From the NCBI GenBank assembly GCA_003225465.1, contig QIAH01000303.1, positions 16,346 through 52,505 of the forward strand: 36,160 bases of DNA. Reading direction: 5' to 3'. Origin of the DNA: Acidobacteriota bacterium. Its GTDB lineage: Bacteria > Acidobacteriota > Terriglobia > Terriglobales > Acidobacteriaceae. Positions 4,269 to 25,198 of this stretch are shown piece after piece. A program made the position numbers and the translations under genes. Numbering within the stretch: position 1 is the first letter of the stretch; each line of letters begins with the position of its first letter. The notes below the pieces were generated by a model that saw nothing but the letters and a program-made list of their open reading frames with translations, had not been told where the DNA came from and searched no databases.

Positions 4269-5395
4269 GGAAGATACTCGAACTCGTCGATGATGACTTC
4301 CGTGTTCTTCTGGCGGAGGCCCTTTTCGCTCGCAACGATGTAAAACATGAATTCCAGGTGCTCTTGGCCAGGTGATGGAACTCCTGCAGTGAAGGTGTGC
4401 TCATAGAATGGATGCGCACCCGACTGAATCGAGCTTCCCCGGTATGCCTTGAACTCTGCACGCCCGGGCTCCCAAAGAATCGAGTAGGTGAGCGTGCCGG
4501 GCGGCTCAGTGAAACGAGCGAGGTTGCCAGGAACATAGAAAGGCTGAATGCCGAATTGTGCGTTTTCTCTGCTTGTGGCGCGGCCCCAGCGCCCAATCTC
4601 GATATCCCATTCTCGGAAATGTTGATCGCCCGCCGCCTGATCATGAGTGTGCAAGCTGAGAACCACGCCAGGATCTAAACGAGCAGTGTCACTGACGACA
4701 AAATTGTAAATGCCATAGCCAAGACTTCGCGCAAGAATCAGTTGCGCGCAAGTCCAGCCTTTTGGCTTATTACTAATCCTGAGATGCAACACGCCACTCT
4801 TGTCGGTCCAGACGTTATCCGCATCGTACAGATTGTTTAGTCCGCCTCGAGCCGAGTCGGTAGTGCGAACCTTCCAGTCATATCCGCTGAAGCGTAGTGG
4901 TACGGTGGGGAGGTCCGGCAGAGATCCAACTCCATTCACTATTCTCAATGCCACTACAGAACCACCCATCGAAGGAGCTACATCGATCGTGGGCGCTGGA
5001 TGATAGTCAGGATCGACAAGGAGCGCAGCGTATTCGTAACCCAAGTGGGTCTGAGTGCTCCATGTCGAATCCGACTGGATGGGGATAAACGGATGGTCGG
5101 GCCACGGCTGTACCCACCAGGGGCCACTCTTTGCATACACTACAATTCGCTGTCCTGGGCGAGCCCCAGAGACCCGGCCGGAGATCGTGTCCAGTCGTTC
5201 TCGGCCACCCTGGGCTGCGGGAGGAATCTTGGTGAAAGCGATGGATAGCGTTTCGTGAGATTTGTCTGCCTGGCAGGCCACCATGGCGACCGCGCTAAAG
5301 AACACGACAGCGCTCAGGATTCGCCAGACAAGACACGGTGCAAAACCTGTTTCAGCGCGACTCGCCGCCGCGATTTCAGAGTGCTTCACTGACAT
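4265..5395 (-). CDS. Putative lipoprotein with lectin/glycosidase-like beta fold, coupled to the kinase
   Basis: A 376-aa exported protein. A long N-terminal region ends in a hydrophobic stretch and lipobox-like MVACQA (Cys about residue 41), suggesting a lipoprotein. The C-terminal half has features seen in concanavalin A/GH16-like sheets (LHLRISNKPKGWTCAQ, EWDIEIGRWG, TYSILWEPGRAEFKAYRG, IIDEFEYLP), but I do not see a clear GH16 catalytic signature, so enzymatic activity is not claimed. The stop overlaps the kinase start by 4 nt. Such tight coupling to a periplasmic sensor suggests it binds a ligand or presents it to the propeller domain; that is inference. The family assignment is moderate, the ORF itself certain. 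Confidence 0.8.
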   Translation of the reverse strand: MSVKHSEIAAASRAETGFAPCLVWRILSAVVFFSAVAMVACQADKSHETLSIAFTKIPPAAQGGRERLDTISGRVSGARPGQRIVVYAKSGPWWVQPWPDHPFIPIQSDSTWSTQTHLGYEYAALLVDPDYHPAPTIDVAPSMGGSVVALRIVNGVGSLPDLPTVPLRFSGYDWKVRTTDSARGGLNNLYDADNVWTDKSGVLHLRISNKPKGWTCAQLILARSLGYGIYNFVVSDTARLDPGVVLSLHTHDQAAGDQHFREWDIEIGRWGRATSRENAQFGIQPFYVPGNLARFTEPPGTLTYSILWEPGRAEFKAYRGSSIQSGAHPFYEHTFTAGVPSPGQEHLEFMFYIVASEKGLRQKNTEVIIDEFEYLP

Positions 5396-5521: not shown

Positions 5522-6574
5522 TTAAGCATCTTCTCGAGCGACGCCGAGAAGGTCTGCCCCGTCCTGAGGAATAGGTCGCGAAATCCCCAATCTTCTCATC
5601 TTCGCCAGCAGCGTGGTTCGTTTCAGTCCCAGTTTGGCCGCTGCGCCGCGCGGTCCACCGACGATCCAGCTGGCCTGCTCCAACGTTTCCACAATCAGAG
5701 CGCGATCGGAGTCTTCCAAGGTCATCGATGAATGGAAGGTTCGGTTGTGATGCTGACCGGGAGCCGTGAGCTCAGTTTGCTTTTTGTGAAGTGGGTTTGG
5801 AAGCACGCCGTCCCGCGTGACGATCACTGCGCGTTCCACCAAGTTCTGCAACTCGCGAATGTTGCCAGGCCAGGAGTACCACTGGAAGGCAGCCATGGTT
5901 TCCGGAGAAATGCTGTCGACTTGCTTCCCCATGCGGCGGCTAAACAGCCTCACGAAATGCGTGACAAGAGCCGGAATGTCCTCCCGGCGCTCTCGGAGTG
6001 CGGGCAACAAGATGGGGAAGACATTCAGACGGTAATACAGATCACTACGAAATTGCCCACGAGCGACCATCTTCACCAGATCCCTGTTCGTAGCCGCTAC
6101 CAGCCTGACATCCACCTTGTGCGTGCGACCGCTCCCTAGACGCTCGAACTCCTGCTCCTGCAAGATGCGCAGCAACTTCGGCTGCAGCGCCGCGGGGATG
6201 TCGCCTACTTCGTCCAAGAACAAGGTCCCTTTGTCAGCCATTTCGAAGCGCCCGATCTTCTGCGCAATCGCACCGGTGAAGGCACCCTTCTCATGACCGA
6301 ACAACTCACTTTCCAGAAGATCCAGGGGAATGGCAGCGCAGTTCAACTTGATAAAGGCGCGCCCGCAGCGCTGACTGGCATTGTGAATGGCATGTGCGAT
6401 GAGCTCTTTTCCTGTGCCGGTCTCCCCCTCGATGAGGACAGTCGAGTCTGTGGGCGCAACCTGCTCCACCTGCTCAAGAACAGATTCCAGGGCAGCACTA
6501 TTGCCGATGATCCGCTCGAACGTACGCTCGGCGTGATCGGGCCCAGGGTTCATGACTGTTGCATAATCTTCCAC
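5522..6574 (-). CDS. Receiver-less sigma-54-dependent transcriptional activator (FhlA/NtrC type)
   Basis: A 350-aa AAA+ activator of sigma-54 RNA polymerase. Only about 20 residues precede the AAA+ domain, so no receiver, GAF or PAS domain is present. Motifs in order: Walker A GETGTGKE, the sigma-54-contacting loop in GHEKGAFTGA, Walker B LFLDEVGDI, sensor segment LVAATNRDL, then PGNIRELQNLVERAVI. The C-terminal Fis-type HTH (GAAAKLGLKRTTLLAKMRRLGI) resembles the FhlA branch. The start is GTG with AGAGG about 6 nt upstream. With no sensory domain, activity may be controlled in trans, for example by the separate receiver encoded just upstream (gap 51 nt). Two sigma-54-like promoters lie at 12227-12242 and 12460-12475. 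That it acts there is inference. Confidence 0.95.
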   Translation of the reverse strand: MEDYATVMNPGPDHAERTFERIIGNSAALESVLEQVEQVAPTDSTVLIEGETGTGKELIAHAIHNASQRCGRAFIKLNCAAIPLDLLESELFGHEKGAFTGAIAQKIGRFEMADKGTLFLDEVGDIPAALQPKLLRILQEQEFERLGSGRTHKVDVRLVAATNRDLVKMVARGQFRSDLYYRLNVFPILLPALRERREDIPALVTHFVRLFSRRMGKQVDSISPETMAAFQWYSWPGNIRELQNLVERAVIVTRDGVLPNPLHKKQTELTAPGQHHNRTFHSSMTLEDSDRALIVETLEQASWIVGGPRGAAAKLGLKRTTLLAKMRRLGISRPIPQDGADLLGVAREDA

Positions 6575-7130: not shown

Positions 7131-7751
7131 CTACGTTGTCGACTTGACCTTGTCCGCCATTCTGACGAGTTCAGGCAAGGATTTAGCCAGCATCTTTTTC
7201 ATCACCTGGCTCCGATGCATTTTGACGGTGGCTTCACTGGCACCGAGTTCCGCCGCAATCTGCTTATTAAGCATCCCGGAAACGACGAGGCTCATCACCT
7301 CGCGCTCCCGGACGCTTAATATGTTGTATCGCTGTCGCAGCTCAGCAGTGTCTCGCTGGTTTTCGCGGACCGTGCGATCTCGAGTGAGCGATCGCTGAAC
7401 CGCATCGAGCAAATCCTGTTGCCTGAATGGCTTGGTGAGAAACTCAACTGCGCCAGACTTCATAGCCTTCACCGACATCGGAACGTCCGCATGCGCGGTG
7501 AGAAAGATAATTGGAATACTTACTTTCCCTCTTTTCAGCTCGTGCTGAAGGTCCAAGCCGCTAATGCCGGGGAGTCTCACGTCAAGAATCAAGCAACTGG
7601 GACCATCACTGCGCGGACTCGACAAGAACTCCTGCGCAGTTCCGAAAGACTTAGAATGCAAGCCGACAGACTCCAGCAGCTCCTGGAGAGACTCACGCAC
7701 ATCTCTATCATCATCGACAATGAATACGGTTGGCACATCCTGCGTGCTCAT
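7131..7751 (-). CDS. FixJ/LuxR-family response regulator
   Basis: A 206-aa DNA-binding response regulator. The receiver domain (residues about 5-120) has IVDDDRDV, phospho-acceptor CLILDVRLPG, FLTAHAD and the Lys in LTKPF. A linker leads to a GerE/LuxR-type HTH (about 140-200: LSVREREVMSLVVSG, then LNKQIAAELGASEATVKMHR). The ATG at 7751 (MSTQDVPTVFIVDDD) is preferred over the upstream non-ATG start at 7766 because the receiver core begins directly after it. It is the first gene of the minus-strand signalling series; a 127-nt gap separates it from the lone receiver. FixJ-type regulators often control respiratory genes, which suits the neighbouring oxidase operons, but the target is not shown here. 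Confidence 0.93.
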   Translation of the reverse strand: MSTQDVPTVFIVDDDRDVRESLQELLESVGLHSKSFGTAQEFLSSPRSDGPSCLILDVRLPGISGLDLQHELKRGKVSIPIIFLTAHADVPMSVKAMKSGAVEFLTKPFRQQDLLDAVQRSLTRDRTVRENQRDTAELRQRYNILSVREREVMSLVVSGMLNKQIAAELGASEATVKMHRSQVMKKMLAKSLPELVRMADKVKSTT

Positions 7752-7993
7752 AACGACGCGCCCCAATCAGAAGGGAGATCAAGCGAAAATCTCCCAAGTT
7801 TCGCTCTGTCGCTGCCGATCAAGCGTCGGTCGACAACGCCGGATAGATTGTATCGGATGATGCAGAGGGGACGCCGTGCAGAGCCTCGGCATCGAGGGTA
7901 ACGTGAGGATGATCACCGACTGCTGACCTCACCAGACCTGCGCGCTTGCTGGCTAGAGACATCTATGTCGACACAAAAGGGGAGCCCAGAAGA

Positions 7994-9334
7994 TCAACGG
8001 GGGACATTTACCGGTGCACGCTTGATTTCAGAGAGTTCCCTCGAAAAATTGAAATCTGTGGGAGCGGCACCGGTGATTAACCGCGCACCGCGATTGAATG
8101 TCAGGTCCTGTATCGCCCATTGAATGAAAACGAGGATGCGACTCTGGAACGAAACCAGATAGGTTACATGGATAAAAGCCCACACCAGCCACGCTAACAA
8201 CCCCGAAATGTGAAGACCGAATACGTCTGCCACTGCGGCTGCGCGTCCAATTACTGCCAGAGACCCTTTGTCGAAGTAACGAAAAGGTGGAAGCTCTGAA
8301 TGCCCCTTTACTTTTCGCAAGATCGCCTTGGCTGCATAGGCCCCTCCCTGCATGGCGACCTGGGCCACTCCAGGCAAAGGTTTTCCTTTTTCATCCGTCG
8401 CTGAAGCCAGATCGCCTACTACGTAAATGTCCGGATAGCTCGGAATCGTCAGGTCAGGTTTTACTTTGACTCTTCCTCCTTTGTCGGTTTCGGCCTTTGC
8501 GTGGCTAGCCACGATCTTGCCCAGCGGCGATGCGGTGATACCGCCAGCCCAGACCACAGTTTTCGCGGCGATTGAATCAGTTCGCCCGCCGGAATCAATC
8601 GTCAGGCCATCTTTGTCAACGTTTTTGACCATTGCACCACACCTCACCTCGACTCCTAGCTTGGCAAGCGAACGGGTTGCCTTTTCTGCCAGGTCCTGAG
8701 GGAAAGGCATCAGTGCTCGAGGCGCACCATCCAGCAGGATGATCTGCGCTTCCTCAGGCTTGATAGAGCGGAAGTCATTCTTCAGGGTTTGGCGCGCGAT
8801 CTCAGCGATGGCTCCAGAGAGTTCAACGCCAGTAGGGCCTGCTCCAACGATGACGAATGTGAGCCAGGCGCGACGCTGCACGGGATCCGAAAGGCGCTCG
8901 GCCACTTCGAATGCATAAAGAATTTTGTGGCGGATGGCCGTAGCTTCTTCGACACTCTTCATGCCGGGCGCCCACTCTTGCCACTCGTTGCGCCCGAAGT
9001 AGGATGTCTGCGAGCCGGCGGCAACGATCAATGAGTCGTAAGGAACGATGGCCCCATCGGCCAGAAAGACGCGTTTTGAATCCGGATCGATGTCCACGAC
9101 GGTCCCCAACCAAACGCGAGTATTCTTCTGCCGGCTTAGGACGCTCCGAAGGGGCGAGGCGACCTCTCCCGCCGAAAGAGAGCCAGTCGCGACTTGATAG
9201 AGCAGTGGTTGGAAAAGGTGGTAGTTCCGCCGGTCGATAACTGTCACGTCCACTAAATTTGAGTTCAAGCGCTGGGCCGCAGACAGCCCACCAAATCCCC
9301 CGCCTATGATCACTACCTTCCAGCGTTCGCTCAT
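7994..9334 (-). CDS. ndh: Type II NADH:quinone oxidoreductase (NDH-2)
   Basis: A 446-aa single-subunit, non-proton-pumping NADH dehydrogenase that passes electrons from NADH through FAD to membrane quinone. The N-terminal FAD-binding Rossmann motif is VVIIGGGFGGLSAAQ, the second nucleotide-binding motif is FVIVGAGPTGVELSG (about 165), and the flavin-site segment is DIYVVGDLAS (about 305). Quinone-side residues typical of NDH-2 appear in VAQVAMQGG. The C-terminal part (LLAWLVWAFIHVTYLVSF) is hydrophobic and likely membrane-attaching. It is the last gene of the poxB-hydroxyacid dehydrogenase-ndh operon, 17 nt after its neighbour, and its ATG is preceded by the strong site AGGAGGAAAG. Length and motifs are normal. 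Confidence 0.96.
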   Translation of the reverse strand: MSERWKVVIIGGGFGGLSAAQRLNSNLVDVTVIDRRNYHLFQPLLYQVATGSLSAGEVASPLRSVLSRQKNTRVWLGTVVDIDPDSKRVFLADGAIVPYDSLIVAAGSQTSYFGRNEWQEWAPGMKSVEEATAIRHKILYAFEVAERLSDPVQRRAWLTFVIVGAGPTGVELSGAIAEIARQTLKNDFRSIKPEEAQIILLDGAPRALMPFPQDLAEKATRSLAKLGVEVRCGAMVKNVDKDGLTIDSGGRTDSIAAKTVVWAGGITASPLGKIVASHAKAETDKGGRVKVKPDLTIPSYPDIYVVGDLASATDEKGKPLPGVAQVAMQGGAYAAKAILRKVKGHSELPPFRYFDKGSLAVIGRAAAVADVFGLHISGLLAWLVWAFIHVTYLVSFQSRILVFIQWAIQDLTFNRGARLITGAAPTDFNFSRELSEIKRAPVNVPR

Positions 9335-9351: not shown

Positions 9352-10335
9352 TCAGACAATTTCCCGACTGCGACCGGGGACGAGGGTCGGCGCAGCCCTA
9401 CCGTTCAGTACCGCCTCCACATTGTCCAGGGCCAGCATGCCCATGGCTGTACGGGTTTCGATCGTGGCGCTGCCGATATGTGGCAATAGAAATGTATTTT
9501 TCAGCGAAACATATTCCGGATGAAGTCTTGGCTCGTTTTCAAATACGTCGAGTCCAGCAGCCGCGACCCGCCCGCTCTTGAGAGCGGCGATGAGGTCGTC
9601 GTCGACCACCAGTCCGCCGCGAGCCGTGTTCACTACGATGGCTCCGGGGGGCAGAAGGCTTATGGCTCTGGAGTTCAAGAAATGGTGCGTCTGAGGAGTC
9701 TCCGGGGCGTGCAGGCTCAAGAACTGGCTAGCGCGAAGCAGATCCGACGGATCCTTGTGGTAGACGGCATCGCCTGCGATTTCCGCAGATAACTCTGAAG
9801 CGTTGGCATAGTGAATCTTCATTCCGAATCCTCGCGCTCGACGCGCCACGGCCTGTCCCACGCGTCCCATTCCAAAAATGCCGAGGATTTTGCCACCGAC
9901 TTGCCATCCCAAGAGCATGTCGGGGTTCAGGGGCTTCCATGCTCCCGTTCGAACCAGCCCCTGAGCTTCGTAAGCCCGACGCGAAGCACCCAACAGAAGC
10001 AACATTGCGATGTCGGCCGTTGCTTCATTGTTGACACCAGGGGTGTAAGCGACCGGAATGTTCCTGCGAGCGGCGGCTTCCAGATCGATATGCTCAAAAC
10101 CCACCGAGTACGTGGCGACGATTCTTACGCTGGGCGAAACCTTCTGGAAAAACCCAGAGTCCAACCGGTCTGCTGGCGTGATAAACATGGCGTCGGCTCC
10201 TTCGGCCGCGGAGAGCAGCTTCTCGGGACAGAGCGGAAGCTGATCCTGTTTTCGTCGGGCGCTATAATCGCGGTCGATACGGTCTTCAACTTCCTTCGGA
10301 TAACTGCTGGTTACCACCAGAATGGGTTTAGTCAT
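9352..10335 (-). CDS. NAD(P)-dependent D-2-hydroxyacid dehydrogenase (glyoxylate/hydroxypyruvate reductase-like)
   Basis: About 327 aa. The D-isomer 2-hydroxyacid dehydrogenase fold shows a Rossmann motif GIFGMGRVGQAVARRARGFG near residue 155 and the catalytic Arg in NTARGGLV, Glu in FENEP and His in LLPHIGSAT. The substrate could be glycerate/hydroxypyruvate, glyoxylate or another 2-ketoacid; closest in appearance to the GyaR/GhrB group. ATG 10335 is chosen because AAAGGA lies about 10 nt upstream, whereas ATG 10344 would leave only 1 nt. The gene sits 24 nt after the pyruvate oxidase-like gene and 17 nt before ndh. In context it could exchange NADH with 2-ketoacids while NDH-2 reoxidises it; that role is inferred. 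Confidence 0.92.
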   Translation of the reverse strand: MTKPILVVTSSYPKEVEDRIDRDYSARRKQDQLPLCPEKLLSAAEGADAMFITPADRLDSGFFQKVSPSVRIVATYSVGFEHIDLEAAARRNIPVAYTPGVNNEATADIAMLLLLGASRRAYEAQGLVRTGAWKPLNPDMLLGWQVGGKILGIFGMGRVGQAVARRARGFGMKIHYANASELSAEIAGDAVYHKDPSDLLRASQFLSLHAPETPQTHHFLNSRAISLLPPGAIVVNTARGGLVVDDDLIAALKSGRVAAAGLDVFENEPRLHPEYVSLKNTFLLPHIGSATIETRTAMGMLALDNVEAVLNGRAAPTLVPGRSREIV

Positions 10336-10359
10336 GCCCGACATATCCTTTACTCGTGC

Positions 10360-12093
10360 TCAGACGATTCCCACATTTCGCTGGATCTCCTTGATCACCG
10401 TATCGACCCTTCCGCTCAGCACTTGCTTGGCGAAACTGAGAGTGAAGCCCTTGACCGTGTGAAATGGTGAATGGGACGGCATGGCAAGCGCAAAGGGATT
10501 TACAACGGCGTCGACGACGACGGGACCATCTTTGTAAGCGAGAGCTTCAGCCAGACCTTCTCGAACGTCCTCGGGTTCCTCGATGCGAATCCCTTTCGCC
10601 CCCATCGCCTCAGCAACCTTGGCGAAATTTGGATTCTTGAACTCCACGCCAGAAGGAATGAAGCCGGCCTCCTGTTGTTCGATATGGACGAAGTCGTACT
10701 TTTCGTTGTTGAGAATGACTTGAACGATAGGAATTCGGCGTTCTATCTGCGTGAGCAGATCGCCCATTCCCAGCATCGTGAAGCCTCCATCGCCGCACAA
10801 CGCGATGCACTGTCTGCCGGGATATGCGATAGCGCATCCGAATGCGTTCGGTGCGGCATTGGCCATAGACGCCCACGAGAATGAGCCAAAGAGCCTGCGG
10901 TTTTTTCCACCGAAGATATGTCTCGCAAGCCAGATACAAGCCGTACCTGTGTCGGCAAAAAACATTGCGTCCTCCGCGGCAAGCTCGCTGAGCGTCGCGG
11001 CGAGGAATTCAGGACGTATGGGTTTTATCCCCGGTCCCTTTTCGACATAGTGCTGCAGTTGTTTGTGGAAGGATTCCGTGTGTGCAATCTGCCTCGCTAG
11101 AAACTCGCCATCCGTCTTTGCACACACGGCGGGAAGCAATGCACGGACCGTCGACTTGATATCGCCGACAAGACCGAGATCTAGCGCTGTACGGCGGCCG
11201 ATGTGCTTCGGGTTCTTGTCAATCTGAACCTTTTTCACACTGGCGCCGGGAAGAAATTCTGAGAACGGAAAATCCGTGCCCAGCATGAGCAAGAGGTCGG
11301 CCTCATGGAGTGCGTTGTACGCTCCCCCATAACCGATCAGCCCGGTCATGCCAACGGCATTAGGATTGTCATGCTCCAGCCATTGCTTCCCCCGGAAGGC
11401 ATAGCCGACGGGAGCCTTCAGCTTGCACGCGAGTTCAACCACTTCATCGCGACCTTCTCTGCAACCGTCTCCACCAAAGATCGCCACCGTCTTCGCTTCA
11501 TCGATCATCCTCACCAATTTGTCGAAGTCTGTATCGGAAGGTCTCAGGATAGCTGGGGATGCAATGGTGAAGTCGGTAGGGTGGTCCGGAGCATCGGCGG
11601 CCGCGACATCGCCAGGTATGGAAAGAACGGTGGGACCCTTCTCCAGAACAGCCGTGAGTATGGCGGTGTTGATGACCGCGCGGGCCTGCTCCGGATTAAC
11701 CAGCCGAGCGGTATAAAGAGACGCCGCCTCAAAAAACTTGTACGGATTTAGTTCCTCGAGCGTGGATGTGTCAATGAGGCTCGACTCGACATCCCCGGCG
11801 ATGGCGATAATGGGAGCTGCTTCTTTCCGCGCGTCCATCAATCCGTTGAACAAATGGACAACTCCGGGCCCCGCAGTTCCGCACACCACCACCGGGTTAC
11901 CCGTGAAATAGGCCTCCGCGACCGCGGCAAACACTCCATATTCCTCATGACGAACGGGAACAAACTCGATTGCGCCATTTCGGCGCAGTGCGTCCACCAC
12001 GGGATTCAGTGCGTCTCCGACGATTCCATAACAGCGCTTGACCCCAGCCTTCGCCAGCATCTCCCACAATACGTCTGCAACTGTTTTCGCCAT
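10360..12093 (-). CDS. poxB: Thiamine diphosphate-dependent pyruvate:quinone oxidoreductase/pyruvate oxidase-like
   Basis: A 577-aa ThDP enzyme of the pyruvate oxidase/acetolactate synthase superfamily. The N-terminal PYR domain carries the catalytic Glu in PVRHEEYGVFAAVAEA, the central FAD-type domain follows, and the C-terminal PP domain has the Mg-ThDP motif GDGGFTMLGMGDLL, ending in LNNEKYDF. Length matches E. coli PoxB (572 aa). The C-terminal extension LSGRVDTVIKEIQRN resembles the PoxB amphipathic helix that binds the membrane when the enzyme reduces ubiquinone to make acetate and CO2. The start is ATG 12093 with GGAGG 7 nt upstream; the 17-aa upstream extension of the track is rejected. 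It heads an operon with the hydroxyacid dehydrogenase and NDH-2 and has a perfect sigma-54-like promoter about 135-150 nt upstream. A phosphate-dependent oxidase is the alternative. Confidence 0.88.
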   Translation of the reverse strand: MAKTVADVLWEMLAKAGVKRCYGIVGDALNPVVDALRRNGAIEFVPVRHEEYGVFAAVAEAYFTGNPVVVCGTAGPGVVHLFNGLMDARKEAAPIIAIAGDVESSLIDTSTLEELNPYKFFEAASLYTARLVNPEQARAVINTAILTAVLEKGPTVLSIPGDVAAADAPDHPTDFTIASPAILRPSDTDFDKLVRMIDEAKTVAIFGGDGCREGRDEVVELACKLKAPVGYAFRGKQWLEHDNPNAVGMTGLIGYGGAYNALHEADLLLMLGTDFPFSEFLPGASVKKVQIDKNPKHIGRRTALDLGLVGDIKSTVRALLPAVCAKTDGEFLARQIAHTESFHKQLQHYVEKGPGIKPIRPEFLAATLSELAAEDAMFFADTGTACIWLARHIFGGKNRRLFGSFSWASMANAAPNAFGCAIAYPGRQCIALCGDGGFTMLGMGDLLTQIERRIPIVQVILNNEKYDFVHIEQQEAGFIPSGVEFKNPNFAKVAEAMGAKGIRIEEPEDVREGLAEALAYKDGPVVVDAVVNPFALAMPSHSPFHTVKGFTLSFAKQVLSGRVDTVIKEIQRNVGIV

Positions 12094-12226
12094 TAAAACC
12101 TCCGGAATTCTTTGTGGACCCGGTATCGGTGTCGCGCGATTCACTCTCAGCGTTTAGGTCGTCGCTATGCCTACCCAGCAACTCTCGAGCAATTCTGTAT
12201 TTCGGTGTTCACGTCACTTGAGTCCA

Positions 12227-12242
12227 TGCAATTGCCGTGCCA
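12227..12242 (-). promoter_or_regulatory. Sigma-54 (-24/-12) promoter for the poxB operon
   Basis: Read on the minus strand, TGGCACGGCAATTGCA matches the sigma-54 consensus TGGCACG-N4-TTGCW at every fixed position, with the invariant GG and GC at the correct distance. Transcription would begin about 12 nt downstream, leaving a leader of about 120 nt before poxB. Confidence 0.82.
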
Positions 12243-12459
12243 TGAAATTCAGGGCCGAAAACCGCGCTTCGTCCACATCGGGCCGGGATTCGTTTCTGCG
12301 ATTGCGTGACAACGCAGATGACACTTGACGCAAGAGGCACGCGGATGACACTGACCGGCCCGGCATGTGTTAGTCGCCTCGCGAAAATAATGATCGGGAT
12401 TTCATGAATGTTGGGATTCAACGCGGTTGCGACGCAGGAAATACGAGGGCATGTCGCTT

Positions 12460-12475
12460 TGGTAGCACGCTTGCT
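12460..12475 (+). promoter_or_regulatory. Sigma-54-like promoter for the caa3/bc operon
   Basis: TGGTAGCACGCTTGCT has the invariant GG and GC in correct spacing, the full TTGCT -12 element, and deviates from consensus only at two weaker positions of the -24 block. It faces the oxidase operon, with an expected leader of roughly 110 nt before coxB. Confidence 0.68.
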
Positions 12476-12598
12476 CTCCACTCAATGGGATTAGGCGGTA
12501 AGAAATTGTGGCGCGCGCTCTGCGATAGGAATTAAGGAGAGATTGCGAAGTCTGGTGATAGCGCGCGCAGTTCGGAAGTGGAGAACGGAAAAAGAGAG

Positions 12599-13660
12599 AT
12601 GGCGATGTTGAAAATGAAATCTTGGACGTTGCGGTTCGTTGCGCAGACCATGCTTCTTCTGTTTTGGTCTGCTATGGCGGTGTGGGCAATCGGGCCAAAA
12701 GACTCGTCTCCTCACGGCACAAATATCTTCGCTCCCGCCTCAACTCCAGCCAAGGCAATCTCTGACTTGTCCGTCTTTGTGCTTGTCATTACCGGAATCA
12801 TCTTTGTCGTCGTGTTTGCTTTACTGGCCTATTCCGTCATTAAGTTCCGCGGGCGAGCTGTTGATGCCGGCCGCGAACCGGCCCAGGTATACGGAAGCAC
12901 CCAGATTGAGCTGGCCTGGACGATCATTCCCATTCTCATCGTTATCGTCTTGTTCTTGGCAACGGCGAGAGTACTCCATGCGGTTCAGGATGCTCCCCAA
13001 CCACCGGGCGCCATCGAGGTCACTGCCATCGGGCACCAATACTGGTGGGAGTTTCGCTACCCGAAGCTGGGGGTCGTTACAGCGAATGAGCTGCACATCC
13101 CGGTGAGCAATCCCGCGAATCCGACTCCTACGTTCTTGACCTTGCTTTCTGCTGACACTGACCACAGCTTCTGGATCCCGGAACTCGCGGGTAAGACCGA
13201 CCTGATTCCCAACCATCCGAACAGAATGTGGATGGACCCACTGCGCACCGGAATCTTTCTTGGTCAGTGCGCGCAATACTGCGGGGTTCAGCATGCAAAG
13301 ATGCTGTTACGCGTCTCGGTGGACAGTCCAGCCGATTTTGCTGCCTGGGTCCGTGGGCAGCAGCAGCCCGCCGTTCAGGACGCAAGCGTAGCGACCGGCA
13401 GGCGAGTTTTCGAAAGCAATGCCTGCATGAATTGTCATGCGGTGGCAGGAACGAATGCCAACGGACGCTTCGGCCCGGATCTCACACACTTGATGATCCG
13501 GGCCACGATCGCCTCCGGTGCAGCTAGCAACACACCAGAAAACCTCCGTCTCTGGATTCAGGACCCAAACGCGATCAAGCCCGGCTCGCTGATGCCGGCC
13601 ATGAAACTAAACGATTCCGACCTAGATGCGGTCGTGAGTTATATGGAGACACTTCGCTAG
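12599..13660 (+). CDS. coxB: caa3-type cytochrome c oxidase subunit II with fused cytochrome c domain
   Basis: About 353 aa. A signal-like N-terminus is followed by two membrane helices (LSVFVLVITGIIFVVVFALL and TIIPILIVIVLFLATARV) and the periplasmic cupredoxin domain. The CuA site is seen in WEFRYP, the loop CAQYCGVQHAKM, and the upstream DHSFWIPEL His. The C-terminal domain is a class I cytochrome c with CMNCH and distal Met in GSLMPAMKL, the mark of caa3 oxidases that take electrons through a tethered heme c. The start could be ATG 12599 or 12605 (GAGAG is better spaced for the latter); the track's GTG at 12578 has no support. First gene of the oxidase operon. Confidence 0.95.
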   Translation: MAMLKMKSWTLRFVAQTMLLLFWSAMAVWAIGPKDSSPHGTNIFAPASTPAKAISDLSVFVLVITGIIFVVVFALLAYSVIKFRGRAVDAGREPAQVYGSTQIELAWTIIPILIVIVLFLATARVLHAVQDAPQPPGAIEVTAIGHQYWWEFRYPKLGVVTANELHIPVSNPANPTPTFLTLLSADTDHSFWIPELAGKTDLIPNHPNRMWMDPLRTGIFLGQCAQYCGVQHAKMLLRVSVDSPADFAAWVRGQQQPAVQDASVATGRRVFESNACMNCHAVAGTNANGRFGPDLTHLMIRATIASGAASNTPENLRLWIQDPNAIKPGSLMPAMKLNDSDLDAVVSYMETLR

Positions 13661-13678
13661 AGGAAGTTGAAGGCTAAT

Positions 13679-15337
13679 ATGTCATCGAATGCGATCACAA
13701 TTCCCGGCGTGCAGATTGACGAGAAGCCTTGGGTTGACACTCTCCATGAGTGGGTGACCACGGTTGACCACAAGCGCTTGGGCGTTCTCTATATTCTCTA
13801 CGCCCTGCTATTTCTGGTTGTCGCCGGTGTCGAAGCGCTCATCATTCGCATTCAGCTCATGTTCCCGCACAATCATTTTGTTTCGCCGCAGGTCTTCAAC
13901 CGCCTGTTCACCATGCATGGCACAACCATGGTGTTCTTCATGGGCATGCCAATCCTGTTTGGCTTTGCAAACTATCTCGTGCCATTAATGATTGGCGCCC
14001 GCGACATGGCGTTCCCCCGGCTGAATGCCTTCAGCTTCTGGCTTTCCGCAATGGGCGGATTTCTTCTCTACTTCAGCCTGGTGGGCGCAAATGGGCTCTA
14101 TGGCGCGGGCAATGCACCTGACGCGGGATGGTGGGCATACGCGCCTCTTACCGCACGGGCCTTTTCGCCAGGCCACAGCACGGATTATTGGACGCTGGCG
14201 CTGTTGGTTTCGGGATTTGGAAGCATTGGAACCGCAATCAATATTATTGCGACTATTCTCTGCATGCGCTGCCCGGGCATGAAGCTCAATCGCATGCCTT
14301 TGCTGGCATGGCTCAACCTGGTGATGGCCGGAATGGTTCTACTCGCGGTTTCGCCGCTGACCGCGGCACAGTTCATGCTGCTTATCGATCGATATTTAGG
14401 CGGCCATTTCTTCGACACGCAGGCCGGCGGCTCGGCCATGTTGTGGATGCACTTCTTTTGGATATTTGGACATCCGGAAGTGTACGTCCTGATTATTCCC
14501 TGCTTCGCTTTCATGTCGGAAATCATTCCGGTGTTTTCACGGAAACCGATTTTCGGATATCCGGTCATGGTCGCGGCCACTGTCTGCATCGGCTTTGTGA
14601 GCATGAGCGTGTGGGCGCACCACATGTTCTCGGTCGGAATGAACTCTTACGCGAACAGTTTTTTCACGATTACCACGATGGCGGTCGGTGTTCCTACGGG
14701 AATTAAGATCTTCAATTGGCTCGGCACCATGTGGGGGGGGAAGATTCAGTTTAAGGTGCCGATGCTGTTCTGCATCGCATTTCTCTTCCAATTCCTGACT
14801 GCCGGCCTAACCGGCATCATGCTGGGAAGTGCCGCCTTCGATTCGCAGCTTACCTTGTCGTATTTCGTCGTTGCTCACTTCCACTACACACTGGTAGGCG
14901 GCGTTGTGTTCGGCGTCTTCGCCGCCCTCTATTACTGGTACCCAAAAATTACGGGAAGAATATTGAACGAGACACTCGGGAAACTGCATTTCTGGCTGTT
15001 CCTGATCGGGTTCCATCTGACATTCGACCTCATGCACATTCCCGGCCTATTGGGTATGCCGCGCCGAATCTACACTTACGAGCCTGGCCGCGGCTGGGAC
15101 ACTGTAAACCTGCTCATCAGTGTCGGCGGATTTATTCAGGCAATCGCTGTTGTGATTTTTGCGGCGAATCTCGTTGTCTCTTATTTCAAGGGAAAGAAGG
15201 CGGGCAACGACCCCTGGGACGCCTGGACACTTGAATGGGCCACAAGTTCGCCCCCGCCTGCGTACAACTTCGCTTCCATTCCCCTGGTCGCGAGCCGGCG
15301 GCCGTTGTGGGACTTGAAGCATCCCGAAGACCAATAA
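13679..15337 (+). CDS. coxA: Cytochrome c oxidase subunit I
   Basis: The catalytic heme-copper subunit (about 552 aa, 12 predicted helices) reducing O2 to water and pumping protons. Ligand motifs are complete: low-spin heme His in FTMHGTTMVF, CuB His with the cross-linked Tyr in FGHPEVYVL, the His pair in WAHHMFS, and the heme a/a3 His pair in VVAHFHYTLVGG. The Glu of HPEVY and the Asp of IGARDMAFPRLN fit the D-channel of A-type oxidases. ATG 13679 is chosen over the TTG at 13667 because a GAAGG site lies upstream at normal spacing. It follows coxB by 18 nt and precedes coxC by 12 nt, clearly one operon. Confidence 0.97.
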   Translation: MSSNAITIPGVQIDEKPWVDTLHEWVTTVDHKRLGVLYILYALLFLVVAGVEALIIRIQLMFPHNHFVSPQVFNRLFTMHGTTMVFFMGMPILFGFANYLVPLMIGARDMAFPRLNAFSFWLSAMGGFLLYFSLVGANGLYGAGNAPDAGWWAYAPLTARAFSPGHSTDYWTLALLVSGFGSIGTAINIIATILCMRCPGMKLNRMPLLAWLNLVMAGMVLLAVSPLTAAQFMLLIDRYLGGHFFDTQAGGSAMLWMHFFWIFGHPEVYVLIIPCFAFMSEIIPVFSRKPIFGYPVMVAATVCIGFVSMSVWAHHMFSVGMNSYANSFFTITTMAVGVPTGIKIFNWLGTMWGGKIQFKVPMLFCIAFLFQFLTAGLTGIMLGSAAFDSQLTLSYFVVAHFHYTLVGGVVFGVFAALYYWYPKITGRILNETLGKLHFWLFLIGFHLTFDLMHIPGLLGMPRRIYTYEPGRGWDTVNLLISVGGFIQAIAVVIFAANLVVSYFKGKKAGNDPWDAWTLEWATSSPPPAYNFASIPLVASRRPLWDLKHPEDQ

Positions 15338-15349
15338 AGGACAACAGCA

Positions 15350-15946
15350 ATGAGCGCAATGGCGAATCCATTCCCACAGGCACCGGCAACCTGGAGGCTA
15401 CCCGATCGCGGCAAGGTCGCAATGGCCGGCCTCATTATTGCCGAGTCGGCGATCTTCACCATCTTTGTGGTTGCTTATTTGTTCTACGTGGGCAAGAGCC
15501 TCACCGGACCGACTCCGCGCGAGGTGCTCGAGACACCGATCTTTTACACCATCTGTCTGTTGTCGAGCAGCCTGACCATTCATTTTGCCGCGAAGTCGCT
15601 GGCACGCGAAAGAGTCGGAGCGTTTCTCGGCTTATGGGTGCTCACCATCGTTTTGGGCGGCACGTTTATGTACGGCACCGGGCAGGAGTGGCACCGGCTG
15701 ATCTACGAACACGGGCTCACGATCTCGACGAATTTATTCGGAACGACCTATTACTCGCTGGTCGGACTGCACGCCTTTCACGTTACTGCAGGCCTGGTCA
15801 TGCTCTCGATTGTCGCGATCTTTGCTGTGGTCGGACGCGTGCAGGGGGAGCAATCGCGTCGTGTGGAAGTGCTCTCCATGTACTGGCATTTTGTGGATGC
15901 TGTGTGGGTAGTAGTTTTCACCGTCGTTTATGTTCTGGGGCGCTGA
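15350..15946 (+). CDS. coxC: Cytochrome c oxidase subunit III
   Basis: A 198-aa five-helix subunit III. Typical segments are ESAIFTIFVVAYLFYVG in the first helix, GTGQEWHRL in the middle and YSLVGLHAFHVTAGL plus YWHFVDAVWVVVF at the end, the last two being hallmarks of the family. Length is that of the short bacterial form lacking the first two helices of mitochondrial COX3. A good ribosome binding site (AAAGGA) precedes the ATG. It stabilises subunit I and the proton-uptake path. It sits between coxA and the membrane-protein gene at 15955. Confidence 0.95.
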   Translation: MSAMANPFPQAPATWRLPDRGKVAMAGLIIAESAIFTIFVVAYLFYVGKSLTGPTPREVLETPIFYTICLLSSSLTIHFAAKSLARERVGAFLGLWVLTIVLGGTFMYGTGQEWHRLIYEHGLTISTNLFGTTYYSLVGLHAFHVTAGLVMLSIVAIFAVVGRVQGEQSRRVEVLSMYWHFVDAVWVVVFTVVYVLGR

Positions 15947-15954
15947 GGGAAGAA

Positions 15955-16824
15955 ATGGCAACCTTGCTGACAACCGAACCAATGAGTGAAAGCCCTGGCG
16001 CGCCGCGCGAGATTGAAGTGCCCGCGCCAACAGCGTGGCCCTTTGTCTTGGCTTTTGGATTCACATTGTTAGCTGCAGGCTTAGTTACGACCATAACGGT
16101 CAGCGTCTTCGGCGCTGTGCTTGCTCTGGCAGGCTGCATCGGCTGGTTCCGCGAAGTCTTTCCTCACGAGCACGAAGAGGTTGTGCCAGTGCTTCCTGAA
16201 GATATCCGCATAACCACCGAACGGAGCATCGTTGAGCGGCTTCCAATTCCGGCTTATCGGCGCGCATGGCTTCCCGTCCACACGTATCCGATTTCGGCGG
16301 GTGTGAAGGGTGGATGGGCGGGTGCCGTAGCCATGGCCATTTTGGCCTGTGCCTACGGCGTGCTGAAAGCAGGCAGCGTTTGGTATCCCATCAATCTTCT
16401 TGCTGCAGTGGTGTATGCCGAATCGCTTAAGCTCGGGCCCGCACAGTTGTATTCATTTCATGCGGACACCTTCGCGATTGCTTTGGTTCTGCATGGCCTG
16501 GTGTCAACCCTTGTTGGGGTGCTCTATGGCGCGATGCTTCCCATGTTCGCGCGCCGGCCGATTGTACTGGGAGGACTCATAGGCCCGGTGTTGTGGTCGG
16601 GACTGCTCTACACAATATTGGGCTTTCTCAATCCATTGCTCGCGAGCCACATTGACTGGCCCTGGTTTATTGCTTCGCAGGTGGCCTTCGGAATTGTGGC
16701 GGGCATTGTGGTCACGAAACAGTCGCGCAAGCCGACTCGGGAGAACCTGCCCTTCCTCATGCGCGCTGGAATTGAAGCTCCGGGGATTATTCCACCGAGA
16801 GAAAACGGAGAGGACGGACAGTGA
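15955..16824 (+). CDS. Oxidase-operon integral membrane protein (possible subunit IV-like N-terminus)
   Basis: A 289-aa protein with about seven membrane helices. The first 70 residues (two helices: WPFVLAFGFTLLAAGLV and TVSVFGAVLALAGCIGWF, then a charged FPHEHEE segment) look like the small subunit IV encoded in many cox operons. The remainder (GGWAGAVAMAILACAYG, IALVLHGLVSTLVGVLYG, VLGGLIGPVLWSGLLY) is a further membrane domain I do not recognise. The ORF track extends it far upstream in frame; the real start is ATG 15955, 8 nt after coxC, with GAGGGAAG before it. Its position between coxC and the cytochrome c gene, with a 4-nt overlap to the latter, suggests a subunit or assembly factor of the bc-caa3 chain. 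Confidence 0.85.
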   Translation: MATLLTTEPMSESPGAPREIEVPAPTAWPFVLAFGFTLLAAGLVTTITVSVFGAVLALAGCIGWFREVFPHEHEEVVPVLPEDIRITTERSIVERLPIPAYRRAWLPVHTYPISAGVKGGWAGAVAMAILACAYGVLKAGSVWYPINLLAAVVYAESLKLGPAQLYSFHADTFAIALVLHGLVSTLVGVLYGAMLPMFARRPIVLGGLIGPVLWSGLLYTILGFLNPLLASHIDWPWFIASQVAFGIVAGIVVTKQSRKPTRENLPFLMRAGIEAPGIIPPRENGEDGQ

Positions 16825-17546
16825 AGCGATTTCAATATCTGTGTGCGTCCGCGGTGCTGAGCCTGCTGCTCTCGGGCTGTAGCTCTCCGCATGGTCAGCC
16901 CCAAGGGGACCCGGAAGCTGTAGCGCCGAGCCAGGTTTCGGACTTTGCCACTCTCTACTCACAAAATTGCGCAGGTTGCCACGGCGCGCAAGGACGAGGA
17001 GGAGCAGCGATTGCGCTGGCAAATCCCGTTTATCTCGACATCGTGGATGAAGCGTCCATGCGAAAAGTCATCGCCAACGGCATACATGGAACCTCCATGT
17101 CAGCTTTTGATCAAAGTGCGGGAGGAATGCTGACGGACAAACAGATCCATGTGATCACGAGTGGAATACTCTCGAACTGGTCACGAAAAGGGATCCTCGA
17201 CGGAAGCAATCCACCTTCGTACGCCGCAAACACTGCAGGCAATGCCGGACATGGTGAACTCGTTTACCGGACGTATTGCGCATTCTGTCACGGCCAAGGA
17301 GGTCAGGGCGGCCCCAAGGGCAGCGCTATCACCAACGACTCATTTCTGGCTCTCGTCAGCGATCAGGAACTGCGCACTATCGTCATCGCTGGACGGCCTG
17401 AACTGGGTGCGCCGGACTGGCGCGGCAACGTTCCGGGAAAGCCGATGACGAACCTGGAGATCACGGATGTGGTTGCGTGGCTCGCGTCACGCCGCGTTCA
17501 GAACCCAGGGCAACCATATTCCGCGTCGAATTACGCGCAGCACTAG
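16821..17546 (+). CDS. Diheme cytochrome c lipoprotein
   Basis: A 241-aa exported protein with a short signal ending in the lipobox LLLSGCSS (Cys about residue 20), so it is membrane-anchored by lipid. Two class I heme c domains follow: CAGCHG (about residue 50) and CAFCHG (about residue 150), each with a candidate distal Met, for example TSMSAF and GKPMTNLE. The start is a GTG that overlaps the previous stop (GTGA), preceded by GGAGAGGAC. It probably carries electrons between the Rieske/cytochrome b complex and the caa3 oxidase; a full-length cytochrome c1 replacement in the bc complex is the likely role. Assignment of the partner is from operon position. Confidence 0.92.
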   Translation: MKRFQYLCASAVLSLLLSGCSSPHGQPQGDPEAVAPSQVSDFATLYSQNCAGCHGAQGRGGAAIALANPVYLDIVDEASMRKVIANGIHGTSMSAFDQSAGGMLTDKQIHVITSGILSNWSRKGILDGSNPPSYAANTAGNAGHGELVYRTYCAFCHGQGGQGGPKGSAITNDSFLALVSDQELRTIVIAGRPELGAPDWRGNVPGKPMTNLEITDVVAWLASRRVQNPGQPYSASNYAQH

Positions 17547-17556
17547 GAGATGAGAT

Positions 17557-18126
17557 ATGTCGAGTAACCCTGTGATGGCCCCACCGACTGACACAACAGT
17601 CTCGCGCCGCGGGTTTTTCATGAAGCTAGGTATCCTGTTCAACGGATTCGCGGCCATGGTACTAGCCGTGCCCGTTGTGGGGTTTCTTTTTTCGTCGGTT
17701 ACGCGCGGTCGTGCGAGCGGCTATCTCTCGTGGGTGCCACTCGGTAGCATTGACAAGTTTCCTGAAGGCGAAACGCGCCTGGCTACGTTTCAAAATCCAT
17801 ACGTGATGCCCACAGATGGCAAGACGGTGGACACTGCCTGCTGGGTGCGGCGTATTGGTGGCGATCAGTTTCAGGTTTTTGCCATCAACTGCGCACATCT
17901 CGGCTGCCCGGTCCGCTGGTTTCAACAATCCGGTCTGTTTATGTGCCCCTGTCACGGTGGAGCATACTATCGCGACGGTTCGCGCGCCTCGGGACCACCA
18001 GAGCGCGGACTGTTCGAGTATCCGTATGAGGTTAAGAATGGCGTGCTGACGATTCAAGCCGGGGAATTGCCGACGCCGGGTGCAGCGATGGCAAGTCTAT
18101 GCACGGAGAAGCCGCCATGCGCATGA
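17557..18126 (+). CDS. Rieske iron-sulfur protein of the bc complex
   Basis: A 189-aa Rieske protein. The N-terminus has a twin-arginine-type signal/anchor (SRRGFFMKLG then a hydrophobic helix). The cluster-binding motifs are CAHLGCPV and CPCHGGAYY, supplying two Cys and two His ligands to the 2Fe-2S centre, and the two Cys that form the stabilising disulfide also appear to be present. It takes the first electron from quinol and passes it to the heme c partner. The ribosome binding site AGGAGATGAG precedes ATG 17557, and the 3' end overlaps the cytochrome b gene. Confidence 0.96.
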   Translation: MSSNPVMAPPTDTTVSRRGFFMKLGILFNGFAAMVLAVPVVGFLFSSVTRGRASGYLSWVPLGSIDKFPEGETRLATFQNPYVMPTDGKTVDTACWVRRIGGDQFQVFAINCAHLGCPVRWFQQSGLFMCPCHGGAYYRDGSRASGPPERGLFEYPYEVKNGVLTIQAGELPTPGAAMASLCTEKPPCA

Positions 18127-19604
18127 TTGCGAAAGTAGGAGAATGGTTCGACCATCGCTTGCAGCTTGCGGCACCGATTCGTGAAGCCGCAGATCATCCC
18201 GTGCCACGGAACACAGCAAGCTGGTTCTACGTGTTCGGCAGCGCAGCGCTCACCGTCTTCATTCTCCAACTTGTCACCGGCATTCTGCTGGCCCTGATTT
18301 ACGTGCCCTCAGCTGGCGAAGCTTGGAGCAGTCTTCAGGCTCTGAATCATCAGGTGGCGCTCGGCTGGTTCATTCGCGCCATGCATGGATGGGGCTCCAA
18401 CTTCATGGTGGCGATTGTTCTCATTCATATGGTGCAGGTGTTCCTGTTCGGGGCCCACAAGTTCCCGCGTGAACTCACTTGGGTCATCGGGGTCTTCCTC
18501 CTGCTGATGACTCTGGGTATGGCCTTCAGCGGACAAGTGCTTCGCTTCGATCAGGACGCCTACTGGGGCTTGGGAATCGGAGCTTCCATCGCAAGCCGAG
18601 TACCCGTTGCCGGCCCCGCGATCGTGAAATTGATGCTGGGTGGACCCATCATTGCCGGCGCAACCCTCTCCCGATTTTTTGCGCTGCATGTGTTTGTGAT
18701 TCCCGGAATGCTGATTGCTTTCGTAGGACTTCACGTATTGATGGTGCTGAGGCTGGGGATCAACGAGTGGCCGATGCCGGGGCGCATTGTTAAGCGCGCT
18801 ACCTATGAACGCGACTATCACGCTCTTACGAAGAGCGAAGGGGCACCGTTCGTTCCGTATGCGGTTTGGAAGGATTTGTTCTTCGCGGGGTTCATCATTC
18901 TGGCCGTCGCCGCCTGCGCCTTCTACTTCGGTCCATTTGGACCGACCGGACAGCCGGATCCCACGATCATCCAGACCGCCCCGAAACCAGATTACTTTTT
19001 CCTGTGGCTTTACGCTTTGCTGTCGCTGCTTCCTCCGTCGATGGAGACGCCATTTCTTCTCATCGTCCCACCTGTGGCGATCATCGCATTGATCCTCTTG
19101 CCCTTTCTTTCCGGCGAAGGAGAAAAAAGCTGGAAGCGGCGGCCGATCGCGGTTCTCACCGTGCTGCTGATTGCCATCACACTCGGGACCTTTACGCGCA
19201 TGGCTCAATTTGCGCCGTGGAGCCCGCACATGAATGCGTGGAGCGGTGATCCGGTGCCGGACCGATTCGTGCATGGCACAACCGCACTGGAGCGTCAGGG
19301 CGCGTTGGTATTTCAGGTAAAGCAGTGCCGTAACTGCCATTCGCTCGGCAATACCGGCGGAAAGAGGGGCCCAGCACTGGATAGTGTCGCGGTGCGACTC
19401 ACCAACGACCAGTTGATCCGCCAAGTGATTCAAGGTGGCGGCAACATGCCCGCCTATGGAAACAACTTAAGTCCGGCGGAGACCACCGCACTCGTGGCGT
19501 TTCTGGAATCGTTGCATCCTGAAGGGCAAGCTCCCGCCCGCGATGCATCACGCGAGGTTGTGCTTGGGGATAGCGACCATAAAGAAGCCGTTGCTCAGCG
19601 ATAG
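18117..19604 (+). CDS. Cytochrome b with C-terminal fused cytochrome c domain
   Basis: About 495 aa. The N-terminal cytochrome b/b6 part has the four heme-ligating His in two helices: MHGWGSNFMVAIVLIH and ALHVFVIPGMLIAFVGLH. The b6/subunit IV-like region with a PP-containing quinol-site loop (LPPSMETP) follows, then more helices. The last ~100 residues form a class I cytochrome c: CRNCHS with distal Met in GGGNMPAYG. Fusion of b, subunit IV-like and heme c parts in one chain is known from Acidobacteriota and some other phyla. ATG 18117 has GGAG 8 nt upstream; the track's start at 18099 and ATG 18123 are alternatives. The start overlaps the Rieske stop, so the two are coupled. Confidence 0.94.
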   Translation: MRMIAKVGEWFDHRLQLAAPIREAADHPVPRNTASWFYVFGSAALTVFILQLVTGILLALIYVPSAGEAWSSLQALNHQVALGWFIRAMHGWGSNFMVAIVLIHMVQVFLFGAHKFPRELTWVIGVFLLLMTLGMAFSGQVLRFDQDAYWGLGIGASIASRVPVAGPAIVKLMLGGPIIAGATLSRFFALHVFVIPGMLIAFVGLHVLMVLRLGINEWPMPGRIVKRATYERDYHALTKSEGAPFVPYAVWKDLFFAGFIILAVAACAFYFGPFGPTGQPDPTIIQTAPKPDYFFLWLYALLSLLPPSMETPFLLIVPPVAIIALILLPFLSGEGEKSWKRRPIAVLTVLLIAITLGTFTRMAQFAPWSPHMNAWSGDPVPDRFVHGTTALERQGALVFQVKQCRNCHSLGNTGGKRGPALDSVAVRLTNDQLIRQVIQGGGNMPAYGNNLSPAETTALVAFLESLHPEGQAPARDASREVVLGDSDHKEAVAQR

Positions 19605-19612
19605 GACAATCC

Positions 19613-20494
19613 ATGCAGCATGCTCACCACGCCGCGTTCGAATCACTCTGGGTTTCCGTGCCTTTGATTCTCGTCGCGTTAGTCTACGTGCGTGGATGGG
19701 TTCGTATTCGCAGAATTAATCTAGAAACGATTGAAAACTGGCGCGTGGGCAGTCTTCTGCTCGGCCTGTTCTTGATCTGGCTTGCGATGGCTTCACCGAT
19801 CGCTGCACTCGACCACGAACTGCTAACGATCCACATGGTTCAACATTTGCTGCTCATGACGCTGGCCCCTCCGTTGATCTGGTTGGGTGCGCCGCTGAAG
19901 CCGCTACTGCATGGTCTAACGCAGGGACTCGGGAACGTTATGAGCTATTTGTTTCGATCGCTGCCGGTCCAGCGACTGGGCAGGGCAATTTCACATCCGG
20001 CAGTCTGCTGGCTTGCAGCCGCTGCCACACTAGTCGGATGGCACGTTCCTTCTTTGTTTGCGCTCGGGATGCGATCAGGACTATGGCATACGATAGAGCA
20101 AGTCTCGTTCCTAGCAAGCGGCTTTCTTTTCTGGTGGCCTGTCATTAAGGCTGGGCAAGGGGCGTCGAACGGCTCAGAATGGCCGATTCTTTTATATCTT
20201 TTTGTGGCTACGCTGCCGTGCGACATTCTTTCCGGATTCCTTGTCTTTTGCGACCGCGTGGTTTACCCAGTGTTCTCGTCTTCACCACAATCGTTTGGGC
20301 TGTCTGCGCTAGAAGATCAGCAATGTGCGGGCGCGTTGATGTGGACTTGCGTTACCGTCGTTTACTTGATTGCCGCGGCAATTGTTGCTGCACGTTTACT
20401 CTCCCCACATCGGTCGGAAGAGCCATCGATTTTGCAATTCGAGTCGAAAGGCAGTGCGGTACGGACGGACCGGCAAGAGATGGAGGCTGTCTAA
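19613..20494 (+). CDS. ctaG: Cytochrome c oxidase assembly protein, CtaG (caa3) family
   Basis: A 293-aa integral membrane protein of the caa3_CtaG family, distinct from the Cox11-type CtaG. It shows seven or so helices with conserved metal-type His in IHMVQHLLLMTLAPPL and HPAVCWLAAA, plus WHVPSLF and ALMWTCVTVVYL. It helps maturation of the oxidase copper/heme centres. It lies 8 nt after the cytochrome b gene and directly abuts ctaB (stop at 20494, next start 20495), as expected for an oxidase assembly module. Confidence 0.93.
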   Translation: MQHAHHAAFESLWVSVPLILVALVYVRGWVRIRRINLETIENWRVGSLLLGLFLIWLAMASPIAALDHELLTIHMVQHLLLMTLAPPLIWLGAPLKPLLHGLTQGLGNVMSYLFRSLPVQRLGRAISHPAVCWLAAAATLVGWHVPSLFALGMRSGLWHTIEQVSFLASGFLFWWPVIKAGQGASNGSEWPILLYLFVATLPCDILSGFLVFCDRVVYPVFSSSPQSFGLSALEDQQCAGALMWTCVTVVYLIAAAIVAARLLSPHRSEEPSILQFESKGSAVRTDRQEMEAV

Positions 20495-21406: not shown

Positions 21407-21481
21407 ATGTCCAAACTCCTGGACAGGCTATTTCGCTGGAAACGCAGTCGCACACGGAGAAGTTCTGTAAATGAGAGATGA
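21407..21481 (+). CDS. Possible 24-residue basic leader peptide between ctaB and the peroxiredoxin gene
   Basis: A tiny ORF, MSKLLDRLFRWKRSRTRRSS plus four residues, fills the gap after ctaB and overlaps the start of the next gene by 11 nt in another frame. It is strongly basic with an amphipathic start. It may be a coupling leader or chance; there is no clear ribosome binding site beyond the ctaB stop region. Confidence 0.25.
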   Translation: MSKLLDRLFRWKRSRTRRSSVNER

Positions 21482-24798: not shown

Positions 24799-25077
24799 CA
24801 GTTCCCCCGATCTTCGAAGTACGGTTCGATTGCGAACCGTTATTGGCTTGCATTGATGAGGAGGTCATGTCTCACTCTGCCATCCACGGCATTTTCCGTA
24901 CGAACCTCGCTCTGGCGGTTCACTGTTGTTCATTGGCTCGTCGCCGTCTAACGAAGCAATTCATCTGCCATCACGTTCGATTGAAATGGAAATCAGATTT
25001 ACTCGCCACAGCTGCGGTGCACCTGAACGTATTGTTGCTTCCTTTTCGTGAAACCGACTCAAGGTGTCTGGTGTCAG

Positions 25078-25095: not shown

Positions 25096-25198
25096 GACTC
25101 ATGCCGTGACACTTCTTCACGCTTGACTCCAGGCCCATCTGTGGCTTCACACCCTAGAATCTCCGGAGGTTTGCGCGCTGAGAGCGACCGTTCCATGT

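Follow-up and report, generated by a model that had tools for sequence, protein, structure and literature searches.

Gene content of the locus

The window, by which is meant the whole stretch of 36,160 nucleotides analysed here (G000:C95:16346-52505), belongs to an acidobacterial assembly of 590 contigs and 6.15 Mb that is 95% complete and 2% contaminated. Two respiratory gene sets diverge within it (Table 1): genes for pyruvate:quinone oxidoreductase, a hydroxyacid dehydrogenase and NADH dehydrogenase, with a group of regulators downstream, and a caa3/bc operon. The gene identities given in the original prediction, which was made from the sequence alone, are correct for the PoxB-type TPP enzyme, the D-2-hydroxyacid dehydrogenase and NDH-2 as well as for the genes of the caa3/bc operon; the best NCBIfam models for the poxB product describe PoxB-type pyruvate dehydrogenases, with scores under the model cut-offs. 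The assembly is coherent at the locus, as the gene order from the sensor kinase to an alginate-export gene is also found in G299:C171, minus poxB, the hydroxyacid dehydrogenase gene and cydAB. Relatives of the PoxB protein (window 10360-12093) at 60-64% identity occur in Nocardia and Streptomyces (L075-L077, L079), which suggests that the poxB gene may have been transferred laterally. Elsewhere in the window, Pfam and NCBIfam models match the C-terminal part only of CydA (23253-24722).

Table 1. Features of the window discussed in the text (positions are those of the window).
Feature	Position	Strand	Remarks
Sensor histidine kinase	747..4268	-	Reg_prop/Y_Y_Y propeller, PAS, HisKA, HATPase; homologue in G299
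376-aa protein, function unassigned	4265..5395	-	Pfam: no match; homologue in the same place in G299
Sigma-54 activator (bEBP), receiver-less	5522..6574	-	AAA+ with GAFTGA, C-terminal HTH; 87% in G299
Receiver-only response regulator, 125 aa	6626..7003	-	92% identity with G299
Receiver + LuxR-type response regulator	7131..7766	-	93% identity with G299
ndh, type II NADH dehydrogenase (NDH-2)	7994..9334	-	Immediately follows the promoter in G299
D-2-hydroxyacid dehydrogenase, glyoxylate-reductase-like	9352..10344	-	Profile match
poxB-type pyruvate:quinone oxidoreductase	10360..12093	-	Pfam TPP domains; ATG at 12093, GGAGG upstream
-24/-12 element TGGCACGGCAATTGCA	12227..12242	-	Faces poxB; perfect consensus, score 18.4
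Putative enhancer (UAS) between promoters	12307..12352	.	Direct repeats; best conserved block of the gap
-24/-12 element TGGTAGCACGCTTGCT	12460..12475	+	Faces coxB; 2 mismatches, GG and GC intact, score 11.5
coxB, caa3 subunit II + cytochrome c domain	12578..13660	+	Alternative ATG at 12599
coxA, subunit I	13667..15337	+	Profile matches
ORF at position of further oxidase subunits	15235..16824	+	No Pfam/NCBIfam match
c-type cytochrome	16821..17546	+	
Rieske protein	17557..18126	+	
Cytochrome b + C-terminal cytochrome c domain	18099..19604	+	
CtaG assembly factor	19613..20494	+	
UbiA-type prenyltransferase	20495..21403	+	Haem O synthase-like by context
AhpC/TSA-type redoxin	21471..22103	+	Sco-like by context

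Two outward-facing -24/-12 elements between poxB and coxB

The central observation of the original prediction, that two outward-facing -24/-12 elements lie in the gap between poxB and the caa3/bc operon, is confirmed: both 16-mers are present where it had placed them and on the same strands, and the minus-strand element, which it had called perfect, is so by pattern match. The GC of this leftward element sits 136 nt upstream of the poxB ATG. In both elements, and in all aligned related gaps, the GG and GC doublets stand at the right spacing for a sigma-54 promoter; past the doublets, the leftward element matches TGGCAC-N5-TTGCW throughout and the rightward element departs from it twice. Besides the leftward element the window has no perfect TGGCACNNNNNTTGCW, and the 6.15-Mb assembly has 8, this one included, against 2 for a reversed-pattern control, in a genome-wide count that covers the perfect pattern only; several of the other 7 sites, read by eye, precede a start codon. 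Scores come from a position matrix built on approximate base frequencies and are thus relative only, with a maximum of 20.4. On this scale background sequence yields ~0.08 sites per kb per strand that equal or better the rightward element (at least 11.5), and this weak match, taken alone, would prove little. When outward pairs were sought in 618 kb of related sequence, requiring both sites to score at least 11.5 and to lie 150-300 bp apart, three were found, two of which are the paralogous caa3 gaps described below.

The assembly encodes the cognate sigma factor, RpoN (PF04552, 205 bits), with an RpoN-box-like TRRTVAKYRE. A scan of the gap found no sigma-70-like promoter, though it may cover the promoters of this phylum poorly, and searches of the gap gave no terminator, no IHF-like site at up to 1 mismatch, and no NtrC- or NifA-like site within the mismatch limits used.

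Conservation of the gap and its central block

When the gap was sought in 398 genomes of the family and 45 of the genus of G299, it proved common to three genomes only, from three genera: that of the window, G038 and G299. In G038 the order poxB, hydroxyacid dehydrogenase, coxB is the same, with no ndh there, while in G299 poxB is absent. The leftward element was originally described as facing poxB-hydroxyacid dehydrogenase-ndh; this holds in the window, but in G299 the first gene after the element is ndh, so that the predicted promoter would not be that of poxB alone.

Across the three-way alignment (12205-12575) 60% of columns are identical; both elements and the central block are preserved in G038 and G299, and the rest of the gap diverges. 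The coxB-facing 16-mer is identical at 15 of 16 positions, and a longer stretch around this rightward element, TTTGGTAGCA.GCTTGCTCT, at 20 of 22; the leftward 16-mer is identical at 14 of 16, with the changes outside GG and GC (it is unchanged in G299 and reads TGGCAGGGTAATTGCA in G038). The central block reaches 16/16, and together with the coxB-facing element it makes up the top two 16-bp blocks by conservation. Loss of the GG and GC positions in relatives that keep the divergent arrangement would have spoken against the original prediction, and there is no such loss: the doublets are kept in both elements of G038 and G299, and the paralogous gap of G200 and G299:C19 likewise retains them in each of its two elements. 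Preservation in related species suggests that the predicted shared switch is real. In other contexts such elements were not found, neither at the homologous place before poxB orthologues (~28 loci) or coxB orthologues (G027 and G024), nor at the caa3 locus of G048.

The central block, which was absent from the original prediction, contains a direct repeat, ACGC[A/G]GATGACACT, at 12312-12325 and 12339-12352, with a 27-bp period, and its core is identical at 21 of 22 positions in the three-way alignment. The distance from the repeats is ~70-110 bp to the leftward promoter and ~110-150 bp to the rightward one; set against the ~80-200 bp expected of an enhancer, the conserved repeats at 12312 and 12339 are a putative UAS. 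The AAGTGTC core is found again in the paralogous gap, inside its conserved block, and the central blocks of both gap sets share CAAGTGTC, a string picked after both blocks had been viewed. Near-matches to the central block in 3 other genomes were set aside, having no -24/-12 element nearby and a coding appearance.

Recurrence at other caa3/bc loci

A second caa3/bc operon with an outward pair close to coxB is found in G200:C1 and G299:C19 (scores 16.5/16.1 and 14.9/13.2, respectively). Alignment of these two gaps reveals GG and GC kept in both elements, together with an invariant central block, GACGACAAGTGTCGGAC.GCGGACA, and at each locus a bEBP of the window's type (71-72%) lies 6-8 kb away. 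In G299:C19 this bEBP is accompanied by a receiver partner, and a formate-dehydrogenase-like gene stands between it and coxB. The divergent gene at these paralogous loci encodes a YceI-like protein (a weak match). Additionally, G041:C6 carries an outward pair (15.0/16.8), ~450 bp apart, between divergent ndh and coxB; no bEBP of the window's type lies within ~20 kb there.

In a survey of 28 caa3 loci, the outward pair was present at all four with a window-type bEBP nearby and at 2 of the 24 without one (Fisher P ~7e-4, a value that overstates independence, as the loci are related and some are near contig ends, where a nearby bEBP may have been missed). G024, whose bEBP stands at 58% and for which a receiver partner was not detected, entered the count as a negative.

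Three further arrangements were seen. Firstly, the window's own genome has a divergent -24/-12 pair ahead of a gene related to the YceI-like one (L223, G000:C498, ~3300-3560), with no caa3 gene found beside the pair. Secondly, a strong -24/-12 site (L173, 8482, plus strand, score 17.3) beside a paralogous caa3/bc operon has the bEBP on one side and a formate-dehydrogenase-like molybdopterin enzyme (9428-12391) on the other. Thirdly, in G232, G257 and G418 (L129, L128, L200) ndh immediately precedes coxB and is read in the same direction, so NDH-2 and caa3/bc stay linked there by another arrangement.

The regulator cluster and the candidate activator

A sigma-54 activator had been predicted 6 kb from the gap, and one is indeed encoded 5.7 kb away. 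This bEBP (350 aa) has GAFTGA, Walker motifs and an HTH, and no receiver domain. The 125-aa receiver protein is encoded ~50 bp ahead of it, and the two are separate proteins in G299 too; from their repeated adjacency at other loci, the receiver protein probably controls the bEBP. Along with this receiver-only regulator, the LuxR-type regulator and the sensor kinase of the cluster were missed in the original prediction. The cluster is syntenic in G299, where kinase, a 374-aa protein, bEBP, receiver and LuxR-type regulator follow one another, the bEBP and receivers being 87-93% identical. Gaps of 128-228 bp separate some of the cluster genes, which may or may not be cotranscribed with ndh. As evidence that this bEBP is the activator, proximity alone is weak, because the genome holds ~41 bEBP candidates. 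The HTH is nearly identical to that of its paralogue (RTTLLAKM / RTTLIHKM). Close relatives of the bEBP in G418 and G103 (L166, L168) have an in-frame stop, reflecting either decay or assembly error.

A probable shared sigma-54 switch and its alternatives

Taken together, these data support the original interpretation that both operons are under sigma-54 control, and make it probable that quinone-reducing input and caa3/bc output are activated in coordination by sigma-54 and a bEBP, with the neighbouring cluster the likely source of the activator. The gap would then be a bidirectional control region at which sigma-54 RNA polymerase waits at both outward promoters, and a bEBP bound to the shared central block would loop to either of them and open it by ATP hydrolysis. 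PoxB and NDH-2 (in G299, NDH-2 alone) would thereby be produced together with the bc complex and the caa3 oxidase. The role of activator would most likely fall to the receiver-less bEBP (5522-6574), which the adjacent sensor kinase and receiver protein(s) would control; as ndh and the regulators share a strand, with ndh upstream, read-through would create positive feedback.

An unlikely alternative keeps both elements as true sigma-54 promoters and assigns their activation to another bEBP, or to several, while the neighbouring cluster serves other targets. The large set of bEBP candidates would allow for this, as would a close paralogue in the same genome (G000:C488, 84-85%), and in G038 both elements are kept with no bEBP on the available side of the contig, in a genome 53% complete; nonetheless, the same bEBP type accompanies the outward pair at both paralogous sets of caa3 loci, without exception in the survey. 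It is less probable again that only the leftward element is sigma-54 dependent, the rightward TGGTAG...TTGCT being a chance match and caa3/bc having a housekeeping promoter that went unrecognised. caa3 oxidases are commonly constitutive, and both the background frequency of sites like the rightward one and the possible blind spot of the sigma-70 scan favour such a view, but the near-identity of this element across three genera and the better matches at the corresponding place in the paralogous gap and in G041 argue against it. That both motifs are accidental, with conservation owed to other elements such as a redox regulator on the central block, is very improbable: this block is the most conserved part of the gap and weak RegR-like matches (2 mismatches) occur in the gap, yet the 618 kb of background hold a single outward pair outside caa3-upstream gaps, the arrangement recurs independently at paralogous loci, and a search of the gap at up to 2 mismatches gave no FNR-, CRP- or Rex-like site.

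The favoured reading, joint sigma-54 activation of input and output, can be extended, tentatively and with rather less confidence, to part of the Acidobacteriota: full aerobic branches, each a quinone-reducing dehydrogenase together with bc/caa3 oxidase, may there be organised as divergent sigma-54 units that have one enhancer in common and a kinase/receiver/bEBP module of their own, and that have been duplicated and combined with varying input enzymes (PoxB, NDH-2, formate-dehydrogenase-like). Basal activity is essentially absent from sigma-54 promoters, so a proton-pumping chain that depended on them would have its electron input and output tightly controlled as one.

Oxygen and comparison with known systems

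The signal is a matter of speculation; low oxygen may be one, or a quinone pool that is over-reduced. At 0.1 uM O2, poxB of A. capsulatum rises 45-fold and one NDH-II 21-fold, with cydAB also up (PMC11636273), and in strain KBS 83 a bc1-A1 caa3 operon is up at 1 nM O2 (PMC8407424); the portions of these two reports available name no regulator for the low-oxygen rises of caa3, PoxB and NDH-II in acidobacteria. Low oxygen is a plausible guess because the gene types raised are those clustered here, A. capsulatum being of another genus. If divergent sigma-54 units do exist, they would explain how 'low-affinity' caa3 oxidases come to be switched on at nanomolar oxygen, and the locus offers a concrete, testable candidate for the low-oxygen response, with defined promoters, a putative enhancer and a candidate activator.

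Sigma-54 control of a whole aerobic chain, input and output, was originally held to be unusual. For a terminal oxidase there is precedent, and bEBP control of one is not new as a principle, because NmpR, a sigma-54 activator of Myxococcus xanthus, acts in hypoxia on an operon that includes a cbb3 oxidase (PMC11841059). The literature searched gave no case of a caa3 chain with both its input and its output governed from one gap, and the main text of a 2025 comparative sigma-54 study makes no mention of cytochrome, oxidase or Acidobacteria. The NmpRSTU system resembles the one proposed here in that a kinase-controlled sigma-54 activator raises oxygen-use genes in low oxygen. It differs in several respects: NmpR has its receiver in the same chain, whereas here the receiver and the bEBP are separate proteins; NmpR binds GCGCA-N5-TGCGC, and the gap holds no paired sites of this kind but a single one with 2 mismatches at 12511, near the coxB leader and outside the conserved central block; and the accessible part of the report describes no caa3/bc, NDH-2/PoxB input or enhancer shared between respiratory operons in the NmpR regulon (PMC11841059).

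The orp1/orp2 operons of Desulfovibrio vulgaris likewise are divergent sigma-54 operons served by one locally encoded bEBP (DVU2106), but they carry cell-division genes and have palindromic activator sites, and their promoters need IHF to be active in an E. coli host (PMC3897727). Within the same phylum, the bc1-A1 caa3 superoperons share the arrangement of caa3 genes upstream of bc genes in one operon and are expressed at nanomolar oxygen, with no regulator or sigma-54 promoter given in the accessible portion of that source (PMC8407424). Lastly, the best NCBIfam match of the bEBP is FhlA, of E. coli formate hydrogenlyase, at 435 bits against a cut-off of 830, so that it is not a member; the formate-dehydrogenase-like gene between bEBP and coxB at paralogous loci recalls FhlA, whereas the short N-terminus without a formate-sensing domain, the aerobic chain and the separate receiver partner set the window's bEBP apart.

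Possible further regulon members

Two other places in the window were noted. A -24/-12-like site, ATGGCAGATGAATTGCT (24955-24971, minus strand, score 12.5), lies ahead of the cydAB operon and a small membrane ORF; the site at 24971 is not conserved in G299, from which cydAB is absent, and control of cydAB by the same system is not supported. Before an isochorismatase/amidohydrolase operon (25108-25215, plus strand), GTGACACTT.TTCACGCTTGACT and TTGGCCCT..TCGTGCA are both kept in G299, and the regulon may extend to this operon.
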